A stretch of 20,173 bases of DNA from a virus. Below, piece after piece: positions 1 through 14,568 of this stretch (position 1 is the first letter of the stretch; each line of letters starts with the position of its first letter). Position numbers and translations under genes: made by a program. The stretch spans positions 1-20,173 of the IMG/VR virus record IMGVR_UViG_3300034092_000391. One strand, given 5' to 3'. Below the pieces are notes generated by a model. That model did no database searches and had not been told where the DNA came from. It was given only the letters and a program-made list of their open reading frames with translations.

Positions 1-153
1 GTTGCGTTGCGGTCGGCACTGAAAACAGCCGAGGCGGCACTTGCAGACATCGGGGACGCAACCCGTGAACCGGGCGACGATCTTGCGTGGTGCGAAGCAA
101 GGGCCGCACAGGCGCTTCCGGCTGTACGGGCAGCACTCAAGGCGACCCCATGA
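1..153 (+). CDS. C-terminal fragment of a small hypothetical phage protein (5' truncated)
   Basis: An open frame runs from the first base of the window to a TGA at 151-153, giving 50 residues rich in Ala, Leu and Glu/Arg and predicted to be largely helical (it begins VALRSALKTAEAALADI). The true start lies off the left edge. The stop overlaps the ATG of the next gene in an ATGA, as at every other junction in this cluster; that shared pattern is the main reason to believe the frame. The composition resembles the many short helical accessory proteins of phages, but I do not recognise a family and assign no function. Confidence 0.6.
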   Translation, partial: VALRSALKTAEAALADIGDATREPGDDLAWCEARAAQALPAVRAALKATP

Positions 154-278
154 CGATGCGCCAAAGAAGGAAACAGTTCTGGTGGACTTGGCACCAAGAA
201 GACACCCCACCGTACCCAGAGTCGCCACGGTATTTTGAGCCGGGCGTGGGCAGGATAAAACATCAAGGAAAGCTATGA
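150..278 (+). CDS. Small basic/aromatic hypothetical protein (42 aa)
   Basis: The protein starts MTMRQRRKQFWWTWHQED and is 42 residues long, basic at the N-terminus and rich in Trp, Pro and Arg. An in-frame ATG exists upstream at 87, but I chose the ATG at 150 because it overlaps the preceding stop (ATGA) and is preceded by AAGGCG at a workable ribosome-binding distance. Its own stop overlaps the next start in another ATGA at 275-278. No family is recognised. The existence of the gene rests on its perfect fit in the coupled chain rather than on homology. Confidence 0.5.
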   Translation: MTMRQRRKQFWWTWHQEDTPPYPESPRYFEPGVGRIKHQGKL

Positions 279-559
279 CAGACATCACTGAAAGACTACG
301 TAGCATCTACGTGAGCGAAGGCGCAAATTATGTGCAGGAGGCGGCAGACTTGATTGAATGTTTGCGTGCCGAGCGGAAGTCGATGGTAAACGACGTTCAC
401 TCTTGTCATGCCGGTTGCCAGAAAGCCGGGTGCGTGAATGTGAGGCTGCGGGAGGCGCTGCAAGATGTTTTTATCGGTATCGGTATGGGGGGCAGCGCAT
501 ATGAAATTAGCCAAAGAACCACACCAATTATTCGCGCAGCACTAGGAGAAACGAAATGA
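275..559 (+). CDS. Hypothetical phage protein (94 aa), MTDITERLR family type
   Basis: A 94-residue protein. Its N-terminus (MTDITERLRSIY, then EAADLIECLRAERK) is the short amphipathic helix seen in many phage accessory proteins that begin with a TERLR…EAADEIERLR-like pattern. A Cys/His-containing stretch (HSCHAGCQKAGC, residues 42-53) lies in the middle and could bind metal, although the spacing fits no zinc finger I know. The C-terminus is helical. The start is supported by AAGGAAAG shortly upstream and by an ATGA overlap with the previous gene. The function is unknown; a small early or accessory protein is the most that can be said. Confidence 0.65.
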   Translation: MTDITERLRSIYVSEGANYVQEAADLIECLRAERKSMVNDVHSCHAGCQKAGCVNVRLREALQDVFIGIGMGGSAYEISQRTTPIIRAALGETK

Positions 560-1254
560 CAACGCAGGCAATCAGGGACGCCATGAGTCTGGTCGTTGAT
601 GGTGGCCTAGACCCATGCGAGTTGCAGTTTTTCGACATCTCTCAAGCAATGGATGACCATGCGTTTTATGACCCGCTGATACAGTGCCGACCACCGTTTG
701 ACAAGTGTCTTGTGGTGTATCGTGGGCCATCAAGAAATCATGCTGTGTACGACATGATGATGTTTGTAAATGGCACAGACCCGGAAGAAGGCATTGTCGT
801 CACGCTTTGGAAAGGCCCATACGGTCAAAGGCCCACACACTACCCAATGCTGGTGTACTTGATTGATGGTGATATGGTGCGATATGGACCGGCAGATGAA
901 AACGAACAGATGGAAGAAGATGTTGCCAAGGGCATTCTTGGAATTTTATCTAAGTGGTATGAGTCACTGTCTAGGCCATGCCAAACGCACATTCCCACGT
1001 TACCCCAGACGTTCACAAACCGACGCAAGATTGCAATGGGTAAAGCGCCAAGCTACGACTGGCACACAGTCACCATTGGCCCCAAACAGTCTAAATCAGA
1101 ACCACAAGGCGGCTCCCACGCATCACCCAGACTGCACGATCGGCGTGGACATCTCCGCAGACTACGCAACGGCAAAAACGTATGGGTGCGATCATGCAGG
1201 GTCGGTGACGCCGCGATTGGCACTGTGTTCCACGATTACGAGGTGGCAACATGA
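556..1254 (+). CDS. Hypothetical phage protein (232 aa) with a conserved-looking basic C-terminal domain
   Basis: The largest gene of the plus-strand cluster, preceded by AGGAG and overlapping the previous stop as ATGA. Residues 1 to about 150 form an acidic, mixed alpha/beta region. After a Ser/Pro-rich linker, residues about 170-232 are basic and contain SPRLHDRRGHLRRLRNGKNVWVRSCRVGD followed by FHDYEV, read here in pieces. From memory, closely similar C-termini (RRGHWR…GK.VWV..CRVGD…G.VFHDYEV) occur at the end of otherwise unrelated small phage proteins, so this may be a portable domain. It has no catalytic motif I recognise. The two-part structure suggests a fusion. Function unknown. Confidence 0.7.
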   Translation: MTTQAIRDAMSLVVDGGLDPCELQFFDISQAMDDHAFYDPLIQCRPPFDKCLVVYRGPSRNHAVYDMMMFVNGTDPEEGIVVTLWKGPYGQRPTHYPMLVYLIDGDMVRYGPADENEQMEEDVAKGILGILSKWYESLSRPCQTHIPTLPQTFTNRRKIAMGKAPSYDWHTVTIGPKQSKSEPQGGSHASPRLHDRRGHLRRLRNGKNVWVRSCRVGDAAIGTVFHDYEVAT

Positions 1255-1520
1255 GTGGAGGATCATTTGACTACGCATACGCACGTATGCATGAGTTTGC
1301 AGACGATCTGCGGTGCAAGCTGGCCGAACAGGGGCAAGTCGTCGATGGGTGGAAGATAGGCACTTGGGAGCCAGCAGTAGCAGCGAAACTTGCGGAGATT
1401 GCTGCGCTTGTTGACTACGCCGCGAAGCTGGCAAAAGAGGTTGAGTGGCTGTACTCTGGCGACACGGGGGAGGAAACGTTTATGTGGCGGGTAGCAAAGA
1501 TTGAGGAGAAAAAACCATGA
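1251..1520 (+). CDS. Small conserved phage protein, MSGGSFDY family (89 aa)
   Basis: The N-terminus MSGGSFDYAYARMHEFADDLR is a signature I recognise from numerous small uncharacterised phage and bacterial proteins that open with MSGGS(F/Y)(D/N)Y. The middle is a helical region, and the C-terminus contains KEVEWLYSGDTGEE, which matches the usual family ending in which an (I/V)EW..SGD segment is retained. Length is typical. The start overlaps the upstream stop as ATGA, with GAGGTGG as a likely ribosome-binding site. No biochemical role has been established for this family to my knowledge. Confidence 0.75.
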   Translation: MSGGSFDYAYARMHEFADDLRCKLAEQGQVVDGWKIGTWEPAVAAKLAEIAALVDYAAKLAKEVEWLYSGDTGEETFMWRVAKIEEKKP

Positions 1521-1723
1521 GCAACGAGTTCTACGATCTTGGCAAACGGATGTACGAACGTCTTAAGCCAGCAGTCCCAATTGCCACGCAACGCCCGTGG
1601 GTAGGGCTGACTGATGAGGACATAAAAGAAATCGTTAGGGGCTGGGGGAATACGCCGATCAAGGGCTACACCCGCAAGTTCATCGACCGGCTTGAAGCCA
1701 AACTCAAGGAGAAGAACACATGA
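1517..1723 (+). CDS. Small hypothetical phage protein (68 aa), PWVGLTDEDI type
   Basis: A 68-residue protein with the segment RPWVGLTDEDIKEI in the middle and a C-terminal helix ending FIDRLEAKLKEKNT. I have seen this combination (an aromatic-Gly-Leu-Thr-Asp/Glu stretch, then a terminal EAKLKEKN helix) in small phage proteins encoded in clusters of tiny genes. GAGGAG lies at good distance upstream and the start is embedded in the preceding stop (ATGA). There is no metal-binding, catalytic or membrane signature. Function unknown. Confidence 0.7.
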   Translation: MSNEFYDLGKRMYERLKPAVPIATQRPWVGLTDEDIKEIVRGWGNTPIKGYTRKFIDRLEAKLKEKNT

Positions 1724-1872
1724 CAATACGCGAACGAATTCGCCATCTTGCCGAGCAGGACGGGCTCACGCTAGAAGAGGCAGAAGACATCCTCCTGGAC
1801 GCTGCCGAGTCGGAGGGCGATAGGCGCAGAGATGACGCACTTGAAACCAACTTTTCGGACAATGACGAATGA
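1720..1872 (+). CDS. Very small acidic hypothetical protein (50 aa)
   Basis: A 50-residue frame beginning MTIRERIRHLAEQDGLTLEE and ending ETNFSDNDE. It is strongly acidic in the second half, with the first half predicted to be two short helices. It exactly fills the space between the neighbouring genes, overlapping both by ATGA. AAGGAG precedes its start by eight bases, one of the best ribosome-binding sites in the cluster. The helical pattern in the first 30 residues could be a small DNA-binding or interaction fold, but nothing decides this. Confidence 0.6.
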   Translation: MTIRERIRHLAEQDGLTLEEAEDILLDAAESEGDRRRDDALETNFSDNDE

Positions 1873-2078
1873 CCGAAAAGCACTCATTCCGCGAATGGCT
1901 AAGCGACCAAGTGGGCTTTTTGCATGAGCCAACCGCGTGGACTGCGTGGCTGGCAGCTACCAAAGCAGAGAGAGCCCGCAACAGGCTGGAGATGAAAGGC
2001 ATCATTAATACGATTGCAACCCATGCAAATGATCTTTCACACTTGGCAAACAATTTAATCCGGCAGCACGATAAATGA
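1869..2078 (+). CDS. Small hypothetical protein (69 aa)
   Basis: A 69-residue protein with an N-terminal Trp-rich helix (FREWLSDQVGF, then PTAWTAWLAATKAERARNR) and a second long helix to the C-terminus. The start overlaps the previous stop in ATGA and has only a weak ribosome-binding site (GGACA), so translation probably depends on ribosomes terminating on the upstream gene. No family is recognised. The Trp/Ala/Leu content is compatible with a helical bundle or peripheral membrane association, but no continuous transmembrane segment is present. Confidence 0.6.
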   Translation: MTEKHSFREWLSDQVGFLHEPTAWTAWLAATKAERARNRLEMKGIINTIATHANDLSHLANNLIRQHDK

Positions 2079-2257
2079 TATGCCCCACCTGCGATACATA
2101 CACCGAGGTGCTGGAGACTCGGGTAAACCCGAAAGGTGTGCGTCGCAGGTATATGTGCGCCAATATGCACAGGTTCACAACGCAGGAGGCTCTGATTCCT
2201 GCTGCAAAAACTCAAGCTCAACTGCGCCAGCAACTTAAAGACGAAAACCAAGACTAA
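2075..2257 (+). CDS. NrdR-like zinc-ribbon mini-protein (60 aa)
   Basis: Residues 1-37 align by eye with the N-terminal zinc ribbon of NrdR, the ribonucleotide reductase repressor: a CPxC knuckle (Cys3, Cys6), then VLETR, Gly-x-Arg-Arg-Arg-Tyr, a second Cys (28) and RFTT. In canonical NrdR the second knuckle is also CxxC; here it reads C-A-N-M-H, so His32 probably replaces the fourth Cys. The ATP-cone domain of NrdR (roughly 100 further residues) is absent and is replaced by a 20-residue polar tail. It is the last gene of the plus-strand chain and has no visible ribosome-binding site of its own, so it is probably translated by coupling. A role as a small nucleic-acid-binding protein is inferred. 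Confidence 0.7.
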   Translation: MICPTCDTYTEVLETRVNPKGVRRRYMCANMHRFTTQEALIPAAKTQAQLRQQLKDENQD

Positions 2258-2267
2258 CGTTTTATGG

Positions 2268-2735
2268 TTAAACCTCCAGCAAGTTCTTGGCGATCCTGTT
2301 AGCCCACCCACGGCCAAATGACGGCCAGGTTGGCAGTGCAGACATAAACTGTAGCCTGGAGCCATTGAACCTAGCGACGAACCGCAGGGCTGGCATGGAC
2401 GCCACGGCCTGCAAGGTGATCGGGCCAAGGTTGCCATCGTCATTTACGCCCACCGTGCGCTGCAAGGTCTTAATGGCCGTGATGACGCCGCTGTGTACTG
2501 CCATATCGAACAGGTCGTATTTTATGGCGTCAGGCACCGCATCGCACCCGGCTGGCCCCCAGTAGTCTCGCAAGTAGATTTCCTTTGCGCGTTCCAGCGT
2601 CATCGTGCGGATCATCTCGCCGGGATAGCTGCGCCGACTGATGCCGTACTTAGTCTCTCCACCCGGATCTCGGTGGTCGTTGACCCAAGAGCCCTCGTGG
2701 CCAATCAAACGCTCAAACGCAATATCAAAGTTCAT
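2268..2735 (-). CDS. Endolysin, glycoside hydrolase 108 type (N-acetylmuramidase)
   Basis: A 155-residue cell-wall hydrolase expected to cleave the glycan strand of host peptidoglycan at lysis. Residues 11-32 carry the family's signature: Glu14 followed by Gly (HEGSWVND) and then DPGGETKYGIS, in which Glu14 is the presumed catalytic acid and the D-x-G-G-x-T-x-x-G-I pattern is the conserved core. The C-terminal half (YWGPAGCDAVPDAIKYDLFD onward) matches the peptidoglycan-binding/helical region that accompanies this catalytic domain, including the VGVNDDGNLGPIT stretch. Length is typical. No signal peptide or membrane anchor is visible, so release would depend on a holin. It overlaps the upstream membrane-protein gene as ATGA. 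Confidence 0.93.
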   Translation of the reverse strand: MNFDIAFERLIGHEGSWVNDHRDPGGETKYGISRRSYPGEMIRTMTLERAKEIYLRDYWGPAGCDAVPDAIKYDLFDMAVHSGVITAIKTLQRTVGVNDDGNLGPITLQAVASMPALRFVARFNGSRLQFMSALPTWPSFGRGWANRIAKNLLEV

Positions 2736-2956
2736 GGCTTGTCCGCTTTGTTGTCCAGCCGATCAAAAATCTTGCCGAGCATTTCCTTGACCTCTCGCAT
2801 ATCGTCTTTGTAATCCGATCGTGCAAGATAGACTTTCGGCAGTTGGGCCAGGTCTTCTTTGAGTTGCTGCACAGCAGTCCACAGCTCACGCGCAAACCAG
2901 CCTATCACGGACATCACCGCGCCCAAAGCGATGTTGATTGTTTGTTGGTCAATCAT
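2732..2956 (-). CDS. Putative holin or lysis-associated membrane protein (74 aa)
   Basis: A 74-residue protein with one hydrophobic segment near the N-terminus (about residues 8-30, IALGAVMSVIGWFARELW), followed by a charged coiled-coil-like tail (DDMREVKEMLGKIFDRLDNKADK). Very similar small proteins sit next to endolysin genes in many phages of environmental Proteobacteria. Its overlap (ATGA) with the endolysin and its membrane segment make holin or a lysis-associated role the best inference, although with one transmembrane segment it would resemble class III rather than lambda-type holins. No clear ribosome-binding site precedes the ATG, which may keep expression low. An inner-membrane anchor of another function is the alternative. 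Confidence 0.65.
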   Translation of the reverse strand: MIDQQTINIALGAVMSVIGWFARELWTAVQQLKEDLAQLPKVYLARSDYKDDMREVKEMLGKIFDRLDNKADKP

Positions 2957-2978
2957 GGTGCGTTATTGATTTAACAGT

Positions 2979-5630
2979 TTACTTTTTAGTGCCAGCGCCA
3001 ATTTCTAAGGCTTTTCGCACTTCTGCTTCATTGGCCCGTCGCGCTCTCATTTCCATAACAGTGGTGCCCAGCTGCAAGCCTGGTGCGACTACATTCAAAC
3101 CACCTTCAACGCCGGCGCTAATACCTTGTTTGGCCTTTTCTGCCAAGGCACCAACCAGTGTATTGGAGTTGTTAACAAACACGCCTCTAGGCTGTGCTTG
3201 CGTGTACCTGGCCACATTGCCCAACGTCTTCAACTGGCTTGCTGCTTCAGGCGTAAAGATCTGTTCCATGTTTTTTACGTCATCAAGCTGTTTAAGCGCT
3301 TTATTGAATCCTGCTTGGGTGAAGTTGCCGGTTTCATCAACAATGCCAGCCTTGTCTTTCAACCAGTTCACAGTGCCTGCGGCCATGTGTTGATGGGCCA
3401 CCGAGTCTTTGCCAAGGTGGTTCACCATCGTAGCGATGTTCTTGTTCACGCCATTGACAACAAATTTTTGCAGGAACTTGTCAGCTGGAACAACATCATC
3501 AACCGCAGCTTTGTAAGCAGGATCTTTCTTCAACATATCAAAGCGCTCTTTAGCCAAACCTCTTGCAGAGTCTGCCAGTGGCTTTAGCTTGGTGGCAGCT
3601 TCTCCAGTCAACGGCAGTTGTTCTAAAGCCTCTCGCACAATGCTAGAGGACATTGCAGCGTTACCGTCACCAGACCGTTCTGCCTTGCGGATCTCTGCCG
3701 CCAGGTTAGTACGCATGGCTTCAAATTGCTCAAACGTCATTGGCTCACCAGACTTAAACCGTTCAAGCTGGGATTTAATTGATGGTGGCAAGAATTCTGT
3801 CTTGAGCTTTTTGCCAAGCATCGCCTCTGCGTTTAATGCTAGCTGTGCGCCATCAATGGGAAATTGACCACCGTTTGCATCTTCCAGCGCTTTGTATGCC
3901 GTGCTGATTTTTTTGTTCCGATCACCATCAAGCGTCTTGTAGGCATCAATGATGCCCTGGCTGTTTTCTATGATCTTTGTGCCGTATGCATCAGGCGCAG
4001 CGTTAGTGCGGATTTCGTTGATATTGTCAATCAATAGACCGTTTTGCTCATTGAACCGTTGTGCAAGTTGCGTGTCTTTGCCTCGACGATTTTGTTCATT
4101 GGATAATTGCACTATGTCACCGCTGGCCTGGCCTTTAGTCAAACGGATGGGTACTGGCAAGCTGTCAGCTTCAATATGCCGCATGAACGTTGGCACATTG
4201 GTTTGTTCAAAAGGAATGCCCGTCAACACGGCTTTCAGTTCTGGTGTCGCACCTAACAGCGCTTGCTGAATTGTCGTGATGGTCGGCACAGCAGCAGCAC
4301 CGACACTACCAGCAGCAGGCGCAGCAACAGGCGCAGCAGCCCTTGCAGCAGCTTGTCTTTGTGCAAATGCCGCCTGAGTATCTGCTAGCTGGGTGGCAGA
4401 CATTGCGCCTGATCCTGCTGCTTCTGTCAAAGGTGCCGCCATCGTAGGCTCAACCCTCGGACGTTCCACCGCAGCCGGTACAGGCTTGCCAGCAAATTCA
4501 TCAATGCCCCTAGCAACAGGTTCAATTATTTCGTAAACGCCTGATCCCAATGCCCGTCTCACAGGTGCTGTAACTTGTCCGACAGCAGGAGCAACGCCGA
4601 CCAAGCCTGTGCCAATCATGTTGGCAACATCAGATTCTGGTATCCCTGTTTGTTCAGCAATGTACTTGGCACCTTTGCCAACGTTTTCGCCAATGAAATC
4701 CATGATTTCTCGGCTCAGTTCACCTTTGTACGCTGGCTCTTCAGTAACGCCAAACGTCTTGCCAAACGGCTTTTCTAAGGCTCCAACAACTGATTTTTCA
4801 GCAGCCGCCGCCTCTTCTGGCGATAGTTGCAAGGCTCTGGCGCCAGCATAGGTAAGAGGCCCAGCAATGCCAGGGAGGATGCCGCCAATGGTTGTGTCAG
4901 CCAATGATGCTGTCGCGGCTCCTAGAGCCTTTAGATGCTTTAGCGCAGCCTGGGCAATCGGGCCATCGCCACCAGCAATCCCTGTATCGCCCCTAGTGCC
5001 GGTAAAAGCGCCGGGTTGTGCTACAGGCTTTTGCACAACAGATCCGGGCTGATATGCTGGCACTGTTGTCTCAAACAAATCAGAGAAGTTACCCACATCT
5101 TTAGCGGTCTGTGAAGGAGGTTGTGCAGGAGGTTGTGCAGGAGGATAAGCAGCAATGGGAACAGGATCGCTCAATGTTTGTGGAACAACGGTCAGCTTTG
5201 ACGCAGGAACGCGACCCAGTTCACGGCGAATGCCAGCCATGTCACTTTCGTTACGCGCCAGGCTTGCTTTGAGTTCAGCTACACGATCAAGGTACTTTTT
5301 ATTATCTTGCGCCTCGCCACCACGTTTTTCAGGTTGACCACTGTTGTATTCGCGCAGTAGGTCGGCTTGACGGGATTCGGCTTTCTTAACCTCAGATTCC
5401 AAGATCATCCGTGCGTCGGAATCGCGCAACGTTTGCTGGGACGCATCAACCCGTGATGTGGGCCGAGGCGCAACCGGCGGGGCAGGAGCAAGTTGTACGG
5501 CTGGTGCAATTTGTAAAACTGGCGCTGGTGGCGCTGGTGGGGCGGTAGCAGGAACAACGGTCAGCTTTGGTGGCGCAACTGGTGGCGCAGCAGCAGGCGT
5601 ATCTTCAAAAAGATCAGCAAGAGTAGCCAT
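2979..5630 (-). CDS. Large DNA-ejection/internal virion protein, position of P22 gp16 (883 aa)
   Basis: The largest protein of the window, last of three consecutive genes in the place of P22 gp7-gp20-gp16, whose products are carried in the capsid and ejected to help DNA cross the cell envelope. Residues 1-60 and 145-215 are Pro/Ala-rich and probably disordered; residues 60-140 are charged and likely coiled coil. Residues about 235-270 and 335-360 are Gly/Ala-rich and hydrophobic enough for membrane contact. The C-terminal 400 residues are predominantly helical (for example KLKTEFLPPSIKSQLERFK and KALKQLDDVKNMEQIF). At 883 aa it is longer than P22 gp16 (609 aa). There is no lysozyme motif. The start codon shares one base with the upstream stop (TAATG). 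Family membership is inferred mainly from gene order and composition. Confidence 0.7.
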   Translation of the reverse strand: MATLADLFEDTPAAAPPVAPPKLTVVPATAPPAPPAPVLQIAPAVQLAPAPPVAPRPTSRVDASQQTLRDSDARMILESEVKKAESRQADLLREYNSGQPEKRGGEAQDNKKYLDRVAELKASLARNESDMAGIRRELGRVPASKLTVVPQTLSDPVPIAAYPPAQPPAQPPSQTAKDVGNFSDLFETTVPAYQPGSVVQKPVAQPGAFTGTRGDTGIAGGDGPIAQAALKHLKALGAATASLADTTIGGILPGIAGPLTYAGARALQLSPEEAAAAEKSVVGALEKPFGKTFGVTEEPAYKGELSREIMDFIGENVGKGAKYIAEQTGIPESDVANMIGTGLVGVAPAVGQVTAPVRRALGSGVYEIIEPVARGIDEFAGKPVPAAVERPRVEPTMAAPLTEAAGSGAMSATQLADTQAAFAQRQAAARAAAPVAAPAAGSVGAAAVPTITTIQQALLGATPELKAVLTGIPFEQTNVPTFMRHIEADSLPVPIRLTKGQASGDIVQLSNEQNRRGKDTQLAQRFNEQNGLLIDNINEIRTNAAPDAYGTKIIENSQGIIDAYKTLDGDRNKKISTAYKALEDANGGQFPIDGAQLALNAEAMLGKKLKTEFLPPSIKSQLERFKSGEPMTFEQFEAMRTNLAAEIRKAERSGDGNAAMSSSIVREALEQLPLTGEAATKLKPLADSARGLAKERFDMLKKDPAYKAAVDDVVPADKFLQKFVVNGVNKNIATMVNHLGKDSVAHQHMAAGTVNWLKDKAGIVDETGNFTQAGFNKALKQLDDVKNMEQIFTPEAASQLKTLGNVARYTQAQPRGVFVNNSNTLVGALAEKAKQGISAGVEGGLNVVAPGLQLGTTVMEMRARRANEAEVRKALEIGAGTKK
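5115..5150. repeat. 12-bp tandem repeat encoding AQPP units
   Basis: Two perfect copies of a 12-base unit (AGGAGGTTGTGC on the plus strand, 5115-5126 and 5127-5138) are followed by a third that matches at 9 of 12 positions (5139-5150). On the coding minus strand they give AYPP-AQPP-AQPP at residues 161-172 of the large ejection protein. The in-frame length means slippage would lengthen or shorten a Pro-rich linker without breaking the gene. Confidence 0.85.
5182..5569. repeat. Direct repeat pair (19 bp) within the large ejection-protein gene
   Basis: The 19-base sequence GGAACAACGGTCAGCTTTG occurs at 5182-5200 and again at 5551-5569, identical and in the same orientation. Each copy encodes KLTVVP plus flanking positions (residues 22-27 and 145-150 of the minus-strand gene). 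Identity at the nucleotide level over codons that could vary suggests either recent duplication or recombination between the copies, which would delete or duplicate the intervening 369 bases, a multiple of three. Confidence 0.85.
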
Positions 5631-7114
5631 TATTTTATGACTCCCAAAAGTTTAGCCTTGCGGATCTTGTCAATCATTGCTTTCTGTTCTGCCGAGCTCA
5701 TTGATGCTTTTAACTTGGCTACTTCTTCCCTAGTCATTTCTTGAAACAGCCTGCTGTCTGCTACATCATTGAAATCAGCCAGCTTCTGAATGTAAGCATT
5801 AGGATCGTTTCTGTATTGGCCAAGGTATTGGGCTTTTGCTGACTTCATGTTTTCCATGCCGATCAACTGACCTACAACATCTTTGATAGCCTTTTCGTTC
5901 ATCTTCTTGTTGGGGTTTGCTGCTTCTGCCAGCATCCTTGCTGCATCAGTGTTGCCACCGGCAAGAGACAACAGGTTAGAGTTTTTCATCAACTCATCAG
6001 TGGCTGTCTTTTCTGCCTCAAAAGCTGGAATGCCAATTGCGTTGGCAATTCCTGCAATCAACTCTTTGCGTTGCCCACCAACACCCGTAAACGCTTCAGG
6101 AGCCAGTTGCCTAATTTTCTGCAACGTCATAATGCGTTGTTGAGCAGTAGATGCGTCCTTTGAGGTGGTTGACCAATCTTCATTTGCTGTTGTTGCATTG
6201 GAAATTAATGTTTGAGCAACGCCAGGAGCCTGACCTGTAACCGCTGGTCTAACGGCTGGTTGGGTTATAGGTGCGGCTTGTCTTGGTGTTGGTGACAGCA
6301 TTGGCACAGAGCCAGGCACAGTACCCGCTTGTGGGCCTTTAACGTATGGCGTTCCAGGTGCCAAGCCAGTTCCGTCACCTTCAACAGCAATCAGCGGTTG
6401 GGTCGGTGGCAATTGAGTTGTGACCGCAGTGCCTGGCAATGCAGCACCTGGTCGTGTAGCGCCAAACTCACCAGTAGCAACAACTGCTGTGCCAGCACCG
6501 CTACTAACAGGTGCGCCAGTGGGTTGCATGGCAGAAAGACGACTTCCAGCATCCAACGTTGCCAACAGCTTATCTTTCAAGAACTGCCGCATACCAGCTG
6601 GAGACTGTGCAAGGTAAGGTTGAATCAAGGCAGTTGCTTGGTCTTCTGGTATGCCCATCTCTTTAGCTTGGGTCATGCCATAGTTTTTTATCAAACCATA
6701 CAAGGCTTCTTGGTTAACTGCACTTGGATTTTGTTCAGCAGCAATGATCAACGGATTGTTAATAATCCCCGTCAACCTGTTAGCAACAGCACTTACCTTT
6801 TTATTGGCAAAATCTAAACTAGTTGATGCTTGACCAGTCTCGGCAGTACCTGCGGCAGCGGTAGCGCTACGCAACAATTCTGGATTTACTTTGGCTGCTT
6901 GGTTAACAATTTGTTGCTGGGCTTGCTGGAGCAACGGGTTCATCTGCCGTGCTTGTTCAACCGTTTGCTGTGCAGCTTGCAAGTTCAGAGGATTGATCTG
7001 CTGGGCTTGCTGGTACGCCTGGGCGCTGCTGGCCATGTTCATCATGTCAGACAACGACATTCCAGCCACGGGTTTAACCGTGTTGCCGATCGGTGTTATG
7101 TTGAAATCAGCCAT
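5630..7114 (-). CDS. Putative DNA-ejection/internal virion protein, position of P22 gp20 (494 aa)
   Basis: The length is close to P22 gp20 (471 aa) and the gene sits between the gp7-like and gp16-like genes. The N-terminus (residues 30-90) is very Gln/Ala-rich and contains three 18-residue units that begin INPL, MNPL and VNPE, a period of exactly five alpha-helical turns. Residues about 205-300 are Pro/Gly/Thr-rich and probably disordered. The C-terminal 190 residues are helical and charged, containing QRIMTLQKIRQLAPEAFTGV and ending in a Lys-rich stretch. No enzyme motif is seen. The gene begins three bases after the upstream stop. Its role as an ejected internal protein is inferred from position and architecture rather than from sequence identity. 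Confidence 0.65.
   Translation of the reverse strand: MADFNITPIGNTVKPVAGMSLSDMMNMASSAQAYQQAQQINPLNLQAAQQTVEQARQMNPLLQQAQQQIVNQAAKVNPELLRSATAAAGTAETGQASTSLDFANKKVSAVANRLTGIINNPLIIAAEQNPSAVNQEALYGLIKNYGMTQAKEMGIPEDQATALIQPYLAQSPAGMRQFLKDKLLATLDAGSRLSAMQPTGAPVSSGAGTAVVATGEFGATRPGAALPGTAVTTQLPPTQPLIAVEGDGTGLAPGTPYVKGPQAGTVPGSVPMLSPTPRQAAPITQPAVRPAVTGQAPGVAQTLISNATTANEDWSTTSKDASTAQQRIMTLQKIRQLAPEAFTGVGGQRKELIAGIANAIGIPAFEAEKTATDELMKNSNLLSLAGGNTDAARMLAEAANPNKKMNEKAIKDVVGQLIGMENMKSAKAQYLGQYRNDPNAYIQKLADFNDVADSRLFQEMTREEVAKLKASMSSAEQKAMIDKIRKAKLLGVIK
6836..6997 (-). repeat. Three 18-residue (54-bp) helical repeats in the gp20-like protein
   Basis: Residues 40-57, 58-75 and 76-93 each start with hydrophobic-Asn-Pro-(Leu/Glu) and continue with Gln/Ala-rich helix. 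The repeat is clear at the protein level (INPLNLQAAQ, MNPLLQQAQQ, VNPELLRSAT), while the DNA copies have diverged, so this is an old, selected repeat rather than a fresh tandem duplication. Confidence 0.7.
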
Positions 7115-12972: not shown

Positions 12973-14568
12973 TTAAAGAGAAGCGATGATAAAAGCCAAC
13001 AGTTCTTCGTAACGGACACCGTAACGATTTCCAGATGGTTTTGCTGCGCGAATAATGACTCCCGCATCGTCAAGCATTTCAAGTTCTGCATCCCATTCGT
13101 CATAACAAAAAACCGCATACTTTTCAGCAACAAGTCCTTCAGCTTCAAATGCAGTCTTAACTTCCTGTGCAATAACGCCAAAGTGAATACGGGCATCATC
13201 ACCTTTAGCTGTAACCGCATCATTGAACCTAAATGACCGGATCATTCCTTTTAGTCGTGTAGCTACTGCTTTTTCAGTTGTGGACAAGTTTTGCACTTGC
13301 TGTTTTTCACGAGCATCGGAAGTATTGATTGCGCCTGTCGCTGCGAACACAACACTCCAGCGCAGCGAACTGCGGCCAAGCGTTTTAAGGTTGTCATCGC
13401 CGGGAGAAAAAGCAGCCGATCCACTTTCCCATAGAGATGTCGTAAAGTTAATTGAGGCGTTAAGGTAGTTAAAACTCGATGATGTTTGAGGTTGAATATA
13501 GATATTTGCGTTGTTTCCAAGATTGTCTACAAAATCAAGGCCAGATATAGTTCCTTTAGATATTAGCTTTGGTCGCTTTACTGCTCCATTGTTCATGGTG
13601 ATTTGCCATGTGCCTGCTGATGGCAACCAATTTTTGTAGCCGCCAGTTTCATCCTCGTAGACTGAGTCGCTTAAAATTGTATCTGTACCTCCGGTTATAA
13701 AAGAACCAAAGAATGATGTATTCAATCCATTTGCGTATATGTGCCTATTTACGGTATTGCCTTCCCAATAGCAGCCCATGAACGAATTTGTTTCTGCTCC
13801 GCGAGTTCCGGTGGAACCAATGTAACAAGCGGTGTCCATGCCCTCAAAAGTAACAGCAAAAAACTTGTTCCCAGTTCCTCTTAAAGACAGACCAGTACCA
13901 CCACCCGCCCCGGAAATTCTACCGCCAAAGAATGCCCAAGTTGTTATTTGCTCTTTGGTAATTTCAGGGTCACCGAGTTCCAAAGCCACGCCGCCAGAAG
14001 GACGTGATGCAAGGCGCAAAAAGTTACAAGAATAAAACTGGTTGTACCATTGAGAAGGGCCACCAGAACCGGAAAGCGTTGAGTTCAACACTGTTACGCC
14101 AAGGCAACCACCACACCATTCAAAATTTACATTGGTAAAAGTCGAGTAAATAAATCCGATGGCATTAACTATTGTTTGCCCAGATGGTGTTGTTTCGCCA
14201 GAGATCAAAGCTAAATTGCTAATTGTTGGGGAAATAATATCGGCAGCAAGTCCAGATGTTGCAGCCGGACTTTTTATCCCTGTGGAATTTGTACCGTACA
14301 ACGCAAGCGTAGTTAAAAACTGTCCAGCACCCTGAAGGTTAACACCAGCTTTAAGAATTATTCCGTTGTATAAATATTTGCCAGCAGGCAAATAAACAAC
14401 ATTACCCCCACTACCAAATCCAACATTTGTATACGCTGCATTTGCGGCATCAACTGCCGCTTGAATTGCAACAGTTGAGTTTACTACCCCGGTTGGGTCA
14501 GCCCCATAATCAACTGCGTTAAAAACAGCGCCGTTAATCATAGAAAAAGTTGCTTTAGTTAACGCCAT
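12973..14568 (-). CDS. Tailspike: pectate-lyase-fold beta-helix with S74 self-cleaving chaperone (531 aa)
   Basis: Residues about 14-300 begin FNAVDYGADPTGVVNSTVAI and VVYLPAGKYLY, the standard opening of the pectate-lyase-like right-handed beta-helix of phage spikes, which binds and often cleaves surface polysaccharide. Beta-helix rungs follow. Residues 415-531 form an S74 intramolecular chaperone: the conserved SDAREK (Ser417, Lys422; spacing of five as in endosialidases) provides the autoproteolytic dyad, followed by FGVIAQEV and ending YGVRYEELLAFIIASL. The chaperone trimerises the spike and is then cut off. There is no recognisable head-binding domain at the N-terminus; only about 13 residues precede the helix. 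The enzyme's sugar specificity cannot be predicted. AAAGG upstream supports the start. Confidence 0.9.
   Translation of the reverse strand: MALTKATFSMINGAVFNAVDYGADPTGVVNSTVAIQAAVDAANAAYTNVGFGSGGNVVYLPAGKYLYNGIILKAGVNLQGAGQFLTTLALYGTNSTGIKSPAATSGLAADIISPTISNLALISGETTPSGQTIVNAIGFIYSTFTNVNFEWCGGCLGVTVLNSTLSGSGGPSQWYNQFYSCNFLRLASRPSGGVALELGDPEITKEQITTWAFFGGRISGAGGGTGLSLRGTGNKFFAVTFEGMDTACYIGSTGTRGAETNSFMGCYWEGNTVNRHIYANGLNTSFFGSFITGGTDTILSDSVYEDETGGYKNWLPSAGTWQITMNNGAVKRPKLISKGTISGLDFVDNLGNNANIYIQPQTSSSFNYLNASINFTTSLWESGSAAFSPGDDNLKTLGRSSLRWSVVFAATGAINTSDAREKQQVQNLSTTEKAVATRLKGMIRSFRFNDAVTAKGDDARIHFGVIAQEVKTAFEAEGLVAEKYAVFCYDEWDAELEMLDDAGVIIRAAKPSGNRYGVRYEELLAFIIASL

Follow-up and report, generated by a model that had tools for sequence, protein, structure and literature searches.

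What holds together a row of nine open reading frames (ORFs) in which each gene begins within the last bases of its neighbor? The question is raised by the plus strand of IMG/VR virus record IMGVR_UViG_3300034092_000391, which comes from a freshwater virus of bacteria and was analyzed here as one window, i.e., the complete record of 20,173 bases, itself a fragment of a larger phage genome. Between positions 1 and 2257 nine frames (g1 to g9) were each found to be open from ATG to TGA, and all eight ATGA overlaps occurred where a first-pass annotation of the sequence had placed them (150, 275, 556, 1251, 1517, 1720, 1869, and 2075). That annotation spoke of nine tiny genes. Nine frames are indeed chained, but eight are complete and one (g1) is a fragment, and g4, with 232 residues, is not tiny. 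The contig end cuts g1; the 50 residues seen recur unchanged at the end of an 86-residue gene product in a related contig, L028. In relatives the chain extends upstream of the window edge, reaching 13 consecutive joints in L028, one of them a GTGA. We consider it probable that the chain forms the accessory, distal stretch of an early, pL-like operon in a P22-like phage, nin-like in its build, and that its members are exchanged at the joints.

Homologous cassettes were found in 19 contigs, designated by L numbers. The tests of junctions, adjacency, exchange, and repeats used 15 of these plus the window, or 16 contigs in all; L004, L040, L048, and L022 were excluded as near-duplicates of L003, L041, L033, and L030, respectively, as judged from their equal matches in the comparisons of non-synonymous with synonymous substitution rates (dN/dS). 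The chain region of each contig was chosen by hand, and genes were called on length and ribosome sites with no reward for ATGA; one miscalled gene each in L029 and L003 was left as called. A 4-base overlap was observed at 140 of the 148 chain junctions, the other eight having values of -8 (two), -16 (two), +1 (two), 0 (one), and -23 (one). The first-pass annotation had proposed looking for conserved gene order and overlap in related phages: the overlap was kept and the order of shared genes mostly so, but the content varied. Gene ends fell into 46 kinds and gene starts into 32, forming 67 distinct adjacencies; 15 of the ends had more than one successor and 17 of the starts more than one predecessor. 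In 10 of the 15 relatives g4 was absent and g3 was followed directly by g5. It lay between these two genes in the window, L002, L005, and L006; L003 had extra genes between g3 and g4, and L014 had the end of g4 only. The successor of g5 was variously g6, a different, 68-residue zinc-finger-like gene, g7, or g8. In addition, g8 was absent between g7 and g9 in L005, L006, and L030, both g6 and g7 were absent between g5 and g8 in L036, and g7 preceded g6 in L005. Replacement was also seen within g3, the N-terminal part of which was constant while the C-terminal part differed in several relatives. Taken together, the cassette is one sample of a mosaic that acquires, drops, and rearranges genes at its joints. 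The absence of single genes in relatives hints, suggestively at most, that they are dispensable.

We examined the base-level position of these exchanges using pairs of joints, sorted into classes by identity outside the joint and so biased toward breaks near it. When the upstream genes were alike and the downstream genes unlike (n = 78), identity was 0.84 over the six bases immediately preceding the ATG and 0.79 in bases 0-5, and dropped to 0.29 in bases 6-11. In the converse class (n = 207), identity was ~0.3 up to base -31, 0.33-0.39 at -30 to -13, and 0.47-0.48 in the last twelve bases, and then reached 0.88 in bases 0-5 and 0.96 in bases 6-11. Because of the class bias, an unselected test was made on all ends of BLAST homology blocks among the 16 cassettes. 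Of the 743 distinct ends, which are not independent, 31% lay within 12 nt of a joint as opposed to 8.6% expected from 2000 random shifts (maximum, 14.8%), and 73 of 352 right-hand ends fell in bases 0-5 of a joint. Where both neighbors were shared, identity held at 0.85-0.96 across the joint; gene ends therefore show no decay of their own. In the six of 19 relatives subjected to a per-gene test, synonymous divergence from the window likewise jumped between adjacent genes (p 2e-4 to 1e-10). For g6, seven relatives each showed 1-2 synonymous changes over 44-45 sites, and in these contigs g7 and g9, where present, gave values of 0.15 to 0.56, pointing to a recent spread of g6 between contigs as a single gene. 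One join could be followed to the base. Some relatives have a long g7 (74-77 residues), and those at L030:6267-6491 and L005:7162-7389 carry an internal ATGAAT a few bases after AAAGGA. L006 lacks the preceding segment, and at L006:6962 g5 is joined at its end exactly to the ATGAAT that is internal in the long g7, resulting in a short g7. It is a clear, though single, example of a join made at copies of ATGA.

The small frames themselves are real genes under purifying selection. Stop codons in close relatives, which the first-pass annotation had named as evidence that would speak against them, were found in none of 115 homologous stretches of g1 to g9 from the 19 contigs, and the pooled dN/dS, also suggested there as a check, ranged from 0.09 to 0.40 in comparisons that share ancestry, include four near-identical pairs, and are thus not independent. 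The value for g6 rests on too few changes to be precise, and some of the matches are partial, most often those of g3, whose gene end was replaced.

Taken in sequence along the cassette, the eight joints had duplex energies to the 16S tail of -4.0, -5.4, -7.3, -7.4, -9.3, -8.5, -3.2, and -2.0 kcal/mol. Six purine-rich ribosome sites followed by two weak or absent ones had been described; the last two are weak as stated and five are clear, but the site at 150 is only marginal. An energy of -4.4 kcal/mol or better was found at 81% of 122 unique joints as compared to 34% and 17% at two control positions. The site is encoded in the last codons of the upstream gene, e.g., LKEKNT is encoded by AAGGAGAAGAACAC followed by ATGA, and as a result unrelated proteins end alike (LKEKNT, IEEKKP, ALGETK, IEGETT). 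Seven non-redundant relatives share the g8-g9 joint (L003, L014, L016, L028, L035, L036, and L038), and none of them has a ribosome site there. When g8 directly follows g5, as in L036, it gains a site, and g9 is preceded by AAAGGA where it follows g7 in L006. Since the site at these genes differs with the upstream neighbor, it is a property of the upstream gene, and the gene that follows makes do with whatever sequence precedes it. Re-initiation at the joints at 1869 and 2075, as originally put forward, fits both their weak sites and the siteless g8-g9 joint of the relatives, and is likely. PMC6728339 gives strict coupling for 13 of 14 overlapping gene pairs tested, with a variable contribution from the ribosome site. 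No promoter-like sites were found in positions 1-3000 of the window (1.7 expected in shuffles).

These features would add up to a portable design. One transcript would carry the whole row of genes, and a ribosome finishing at TGA would already be on the ATG of the next gene, the binding site for which lies, at most joints, in the last codons of the upstream gene. Any gene that starts with ATGA and ends in a site plus ATGA could then be expressed anywhere in the chain with no promoter or leader of its own, and such a design would make the chain a mosaic. The joins would arise by random or short-homology recombination, and the working ones would be selected and then spread by homologous exchange between relatives, selection being the presumed cause of the pattern.

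The assignment to an early operon comes from relatives. The 32-kb relative to which L006 belongs carries P22_Cro, DUF1376, RusA, NinB, a co-chaperonin-like gene, and terminase on one strand; the other strand has ERF (PF04404) and, after it, the chain. In both L006 and L030 the chain comes after ERF and is convergent with the late genes, and in L006 it is on the opposite strand from P22_Cro. By analogy, the L006 layout is that of the early-left operon of lambda and P22, and a pL-type placement, i.e., after an annealing recombinase and on the strand opposite cro, is seen in it. The early-left regions of lambda, P22, and D3 have small accessory genes after red, erf, or erf/exo, just as the chain follows ERF in L006 and L030, but no homologous gene was found between these regions and the chain. 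An integrase was found in none of nine related contigs, all of them fragments.

Several observations weigh against our interpretation. L028 and L036 have an SNF2-type helicase in place of ERF upstream (the family test was run on L036), and the window does not extend to the upstream recombination and regulatory genes. After gene calling, starts were reassigned to an ATGA wherever the frame permitted it, a step that favors the ATGA count. The majority of homology-block ends (69%) lie away from joints, meaning that exchange often takes place within genes as well. With the minimum lowered to 20 codons, a run of 7 is reached even in lambda, and comparisons of run length therefore depend on the minimum used. 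Finally, coupled translation and a single transcript are read from the anatomy of the chain.

Alternatively, the joints could be recombination sites in their own right, the linker serving as a short direct repeat at which a phage annealing recombinase inserts or excises single genes. The ERF gene of L006 and the exact g5-g7 join speak for this idea, and PMC3945230 treats phage mosaicism via Rad52-like recombinases including Erf as established and describes such enzymes, Erf of D3 among them, as acting on diverged sequences. Linkers flanking 20 gained or lost segments were also slightly more alike than other joint pairs (identity, 0.444 vs. 0.382; one-sided p 0.027). Over the whole 27-base joint, however, the likeness did not reach significance (p 0.09; p 0.34 for the longest shared run), and the constraint of the ribosome site is enough by itself to make unrelated linkers alike (identity at -12 to -7, 0.45). 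The signal for excision at direct repeats is thus weak, and we regard this alternative as quite unlikely.

A second possibility is that the cassette is an ordinary dense phage operon, in which ATGA is merely the commonest overlap and alignments tend to stop at gene ends. Four-base overlaps are described as common in prokaryotes (PMC6728339), and they were present in all nine reference phages that we examined. Nonetheless, an annotation-free search for ORFs linked by ATGA or GTGA gave an unbroken run of 8 in the window (minimum, 40 codons) and runs of 4 to 13 in 15 close relatives, all of them fragments, whereas the reference phages at 30 codons gave runs of 2 (T7), 3 (lambda, P22, HK97, P26218, and MW202520), 4 (MW202674 and the first 50 kb of D3), and 5 (BPP-1). 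Among 60 order-1 Markov sequences of 40 kb, also at 30 codons, the longest runs were 1, 2, 3, and 4 in 9, 45, 5, and 1 cases, respectively. Within the window, the 4-base overlap was found at 8 of 8 cassette junctions versus 3 of 18 junctions between late minus-strand genes (Fisher p = 1e-4; the late ORFs were picked from the ORF list by the author). The steady identity across joints with both neighbors shared is also at odds with alignments that simply end with genes, and we judge this explanation very unlikely. That the products act together, with compactness and coupling fixing their ratios, as the first-pass annotation proposed, is highly improbable: cellular genes that overlap in pairs reportedly often code for subunits of complexes (PMC10666635) and shared genes mostly keep their order, but the variable content of the chain argues against a fixed stoichiometry, the strongly differing synonymous divergence of neighbors means that they do not travel as one unit, and compactness alone leaves the coincidence of exchange points with joints unexplained.

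A mosaic accessory chain exchanged at its joints, as we prefer to read it, has a well-known counterpart. Kroger and Hobom reportedly described the nin region of lambda as a "chain of interlinked genes" in 1982. PMC8022706 and PMC10695390 cite this description, and the former presents the region as exceptionally tightly packed and ATGA overlaps as numerous in all lambdoid phages. The nin-type row of lambda and P22 consists of mostly dispensable genes in an early operon, and it shares with the cassette a series of small, codirectional genes, ATGA overlaps (8/8 joints here), and a content that varies between phages (among 15 relatives here). The two have no gene in common, and the cassette's run of 8 (13 in a relative) compares to 3 in lambda and P22 at 30 codons. 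The nin region proper was ruled out as an identity for the cassette; there was no nin-family match, and NinB, RusA, and P22_Cro of L006 are on the opposite strand. The ATGA termination-reinitiation coupling treated in PMC6728339 has the same geometry, with a ribosome site inside the upstream gene. The chain differs from such pairs in having up to 13 joints in series and in the exchange of its members, and coupling here is proposed from geometry and ribosome-site energies. A literature search, which covered few subscription journals, found the lambdoid nin description and nothing that we recognized on this phage group or on exchange at ATGA joints. Conserved gene-boundary sequences are a theme of older work on lambdoid phages. 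The arrangement itself is therefore already known as a nin-type chain; what is new is the length and purity of the chain, the base-level evidence for joints as exchange points, a conserved 23-residue gene in the chains of relatives, and a widespread, uncharacterized 232-residue family.

Coordinates of the cassette genes, of the gene that bounds them, and of a small gene in relatives (window positions unless a contig is named)
Feature	Position	Strand	Observations
g1, truncated at contig end	1..153	+	open frame; 50 residues seen; 12 homologous stretches, no stop; dN/dS 0.14
g2, 42 residues	150..278	+	ATGA joint at 150; 15 homologues, no stop; dN/dS 0.13
g3, 94 residues	275..559	+	ATGA joint at 275; 16 homologues; dN/dS 0.35
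g4, 232 residues, uncharacterized phage family	556..1254	+	ATGA joint at 556; 63 viral loci; dN/dS 0.10
g5, 89 residues, phrog_6724-like	1251..1520	+	ATGA joint at 1251; 19 homologues; dN/dS 0.22
g6, 68 residues	1517..1723	+	ATGA joint at 1517; 11 homologues; dN/dS 0.40
g7, 50 residues	1720..1872	+	ATGA joint at 1720; 12 homologues; dN/dS 0.09
g8, 69 residues	1869..2078	+	ATGA joint at 1869, weak ribosome site; 10 homologues; dN/dS 0.27
g9, 60 residues, NrdR-like zinc ribbon	2075..2257	+	ATGA joint at 2075, no ribosome site; 14 homologues; dN/dS 0.11
Endolysin gene, glycosyl hydrolase 108, bounds cassette	2268..2735	-	PF05838, 79.8 bits; phrog_315 endolysin
23-residue gene of relatives	L002:5222, L016:1533, L033:5192, L038:5518, L039:5518, L040:1187, L041:5337		

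No core phage function was recognized in the cassette, and most of its proteins had no match to described families. The accessory character assigned to it earlier stands. A nucleotide search of the cassette against 50,697 phage records found nothing, as did a PADLOC scan of nine proteins (six window genes and three from relatives). The product of g9 matched PF22811, the N-terminal zinc ribbon of NrdR, with 31.6 bits (cut-off, 27.2). The ribbon is common to both proteins, but the domain that follows it in NrdR is missing from the 60 residues of g9 (TIGR00244, 22.5 bits vs. a cut-off of 124.65). By tblastn against the same phage records, g9 was found in one record, and g5, which matched phrog_6724 with an E value of 6.6e-6, had a distant relative in two records of one cyanophage (S-SRM01).

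The g4 family is widespread in aquatic phages, with one further locus on a contig of a metagenome-assembled bacterium, and has a basic, conserved C-terminus with an invariant HASPRLHDRRGH-type stretch. L110 was omitted from alignment A3 because its match length was not a multiple of three. The gene ends in ATGA in 35 of 42 loci examined, and may therefore travel between the chains of different phages. On an unrelated phage fragment (L011:1939-4039), a g4 homologue was seen after a long chain of small genes with mostly 4- or 8-base overlaps. Searches for g4 by tblastn in the phage records found nothing, and alignment-based searches of Pfam, PHROGs, and PDB sequences yielded nothing usable. Two AlphaFold models had a mean pLDDT of 59 and 73, with a poorly modeled basic C-terminus. 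They gave no Foldseek match to the PDB at E <= 0.001, and the best VIA-align result (Z 3.8, 88 aligned residues, rmsd 4.9) was not informative; in BFVD there were four matches at E <= 0.001, none with a described function. We make no claim that g4 is like an anti-CRISPR.

In the chains of relatives only, we found a 23-residue gene, MTGW...WR(T/S)A, that has an ATGA at either end, at seven loci encoding five distinct proteins. It is placed between g1-like or other genes and g2, and the hydrophobic core of its product hints at a single transmembrane segment. It goes undetected by gene callers that require 30 residues. Also upstream of g2, at L016:386-1536 and L035:4439-5589, is a pair consisting of a queuine tRNA-ribosyltransferase-like gene (phrog_887) and a Vut_1 transporter gene; the family tests were run on L016, and L035 has the same layout. 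We take such a pair to be associated with phage DNA modification, and it is possibly a DNA-modification module.

Downstream, the stop codon of g9 lies 10 bases short of the convergent endolysin gene. The minus strand of the window carries late genes of P22-like type (portal, scaffold, P22-type coat, head closure, tail fibers, and endolysin). Related phages such as Rhodoferax phage P26218 allow no more than a guess at a Burkholderiales host. In the tail spike or fiber gene at 12973-14568, the C-terminal third matched several tail-fiber families and the N-terminal part matched other, weaker ones. Two large late proteins of 883 and 494 residues, encoded at 2979-7114, had no PHROG match and, by their position beside the tail genes, may be candidate ejection proteins.

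The chain provides a quantitative case for an old idea, namely that ATGA-linked chains permit the exchange of accessory genes while translation persists, and the many close relatives make it possible to map the exchange points to a few bases. Its joints offer a route to phage microproteins that gene callers miss, the chain genes including some of 23 to 69 residues, and the queuine/Vut_1 pair of relatives makes the chain a sensible place to seek counter-defense functions. A bolder proposal, which we hold to be tentative and rather unlikely, is that the site plus ATGA is a standard connector at which genes with the connector at their start and end, down to 23 codons, would be inserted, excised, and reordered singly, aided by the phage's own annealing recombinase. 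If this were true, phages of this group would assemble individual sets of host-takeover or counter-defense genes that are expressed at once.

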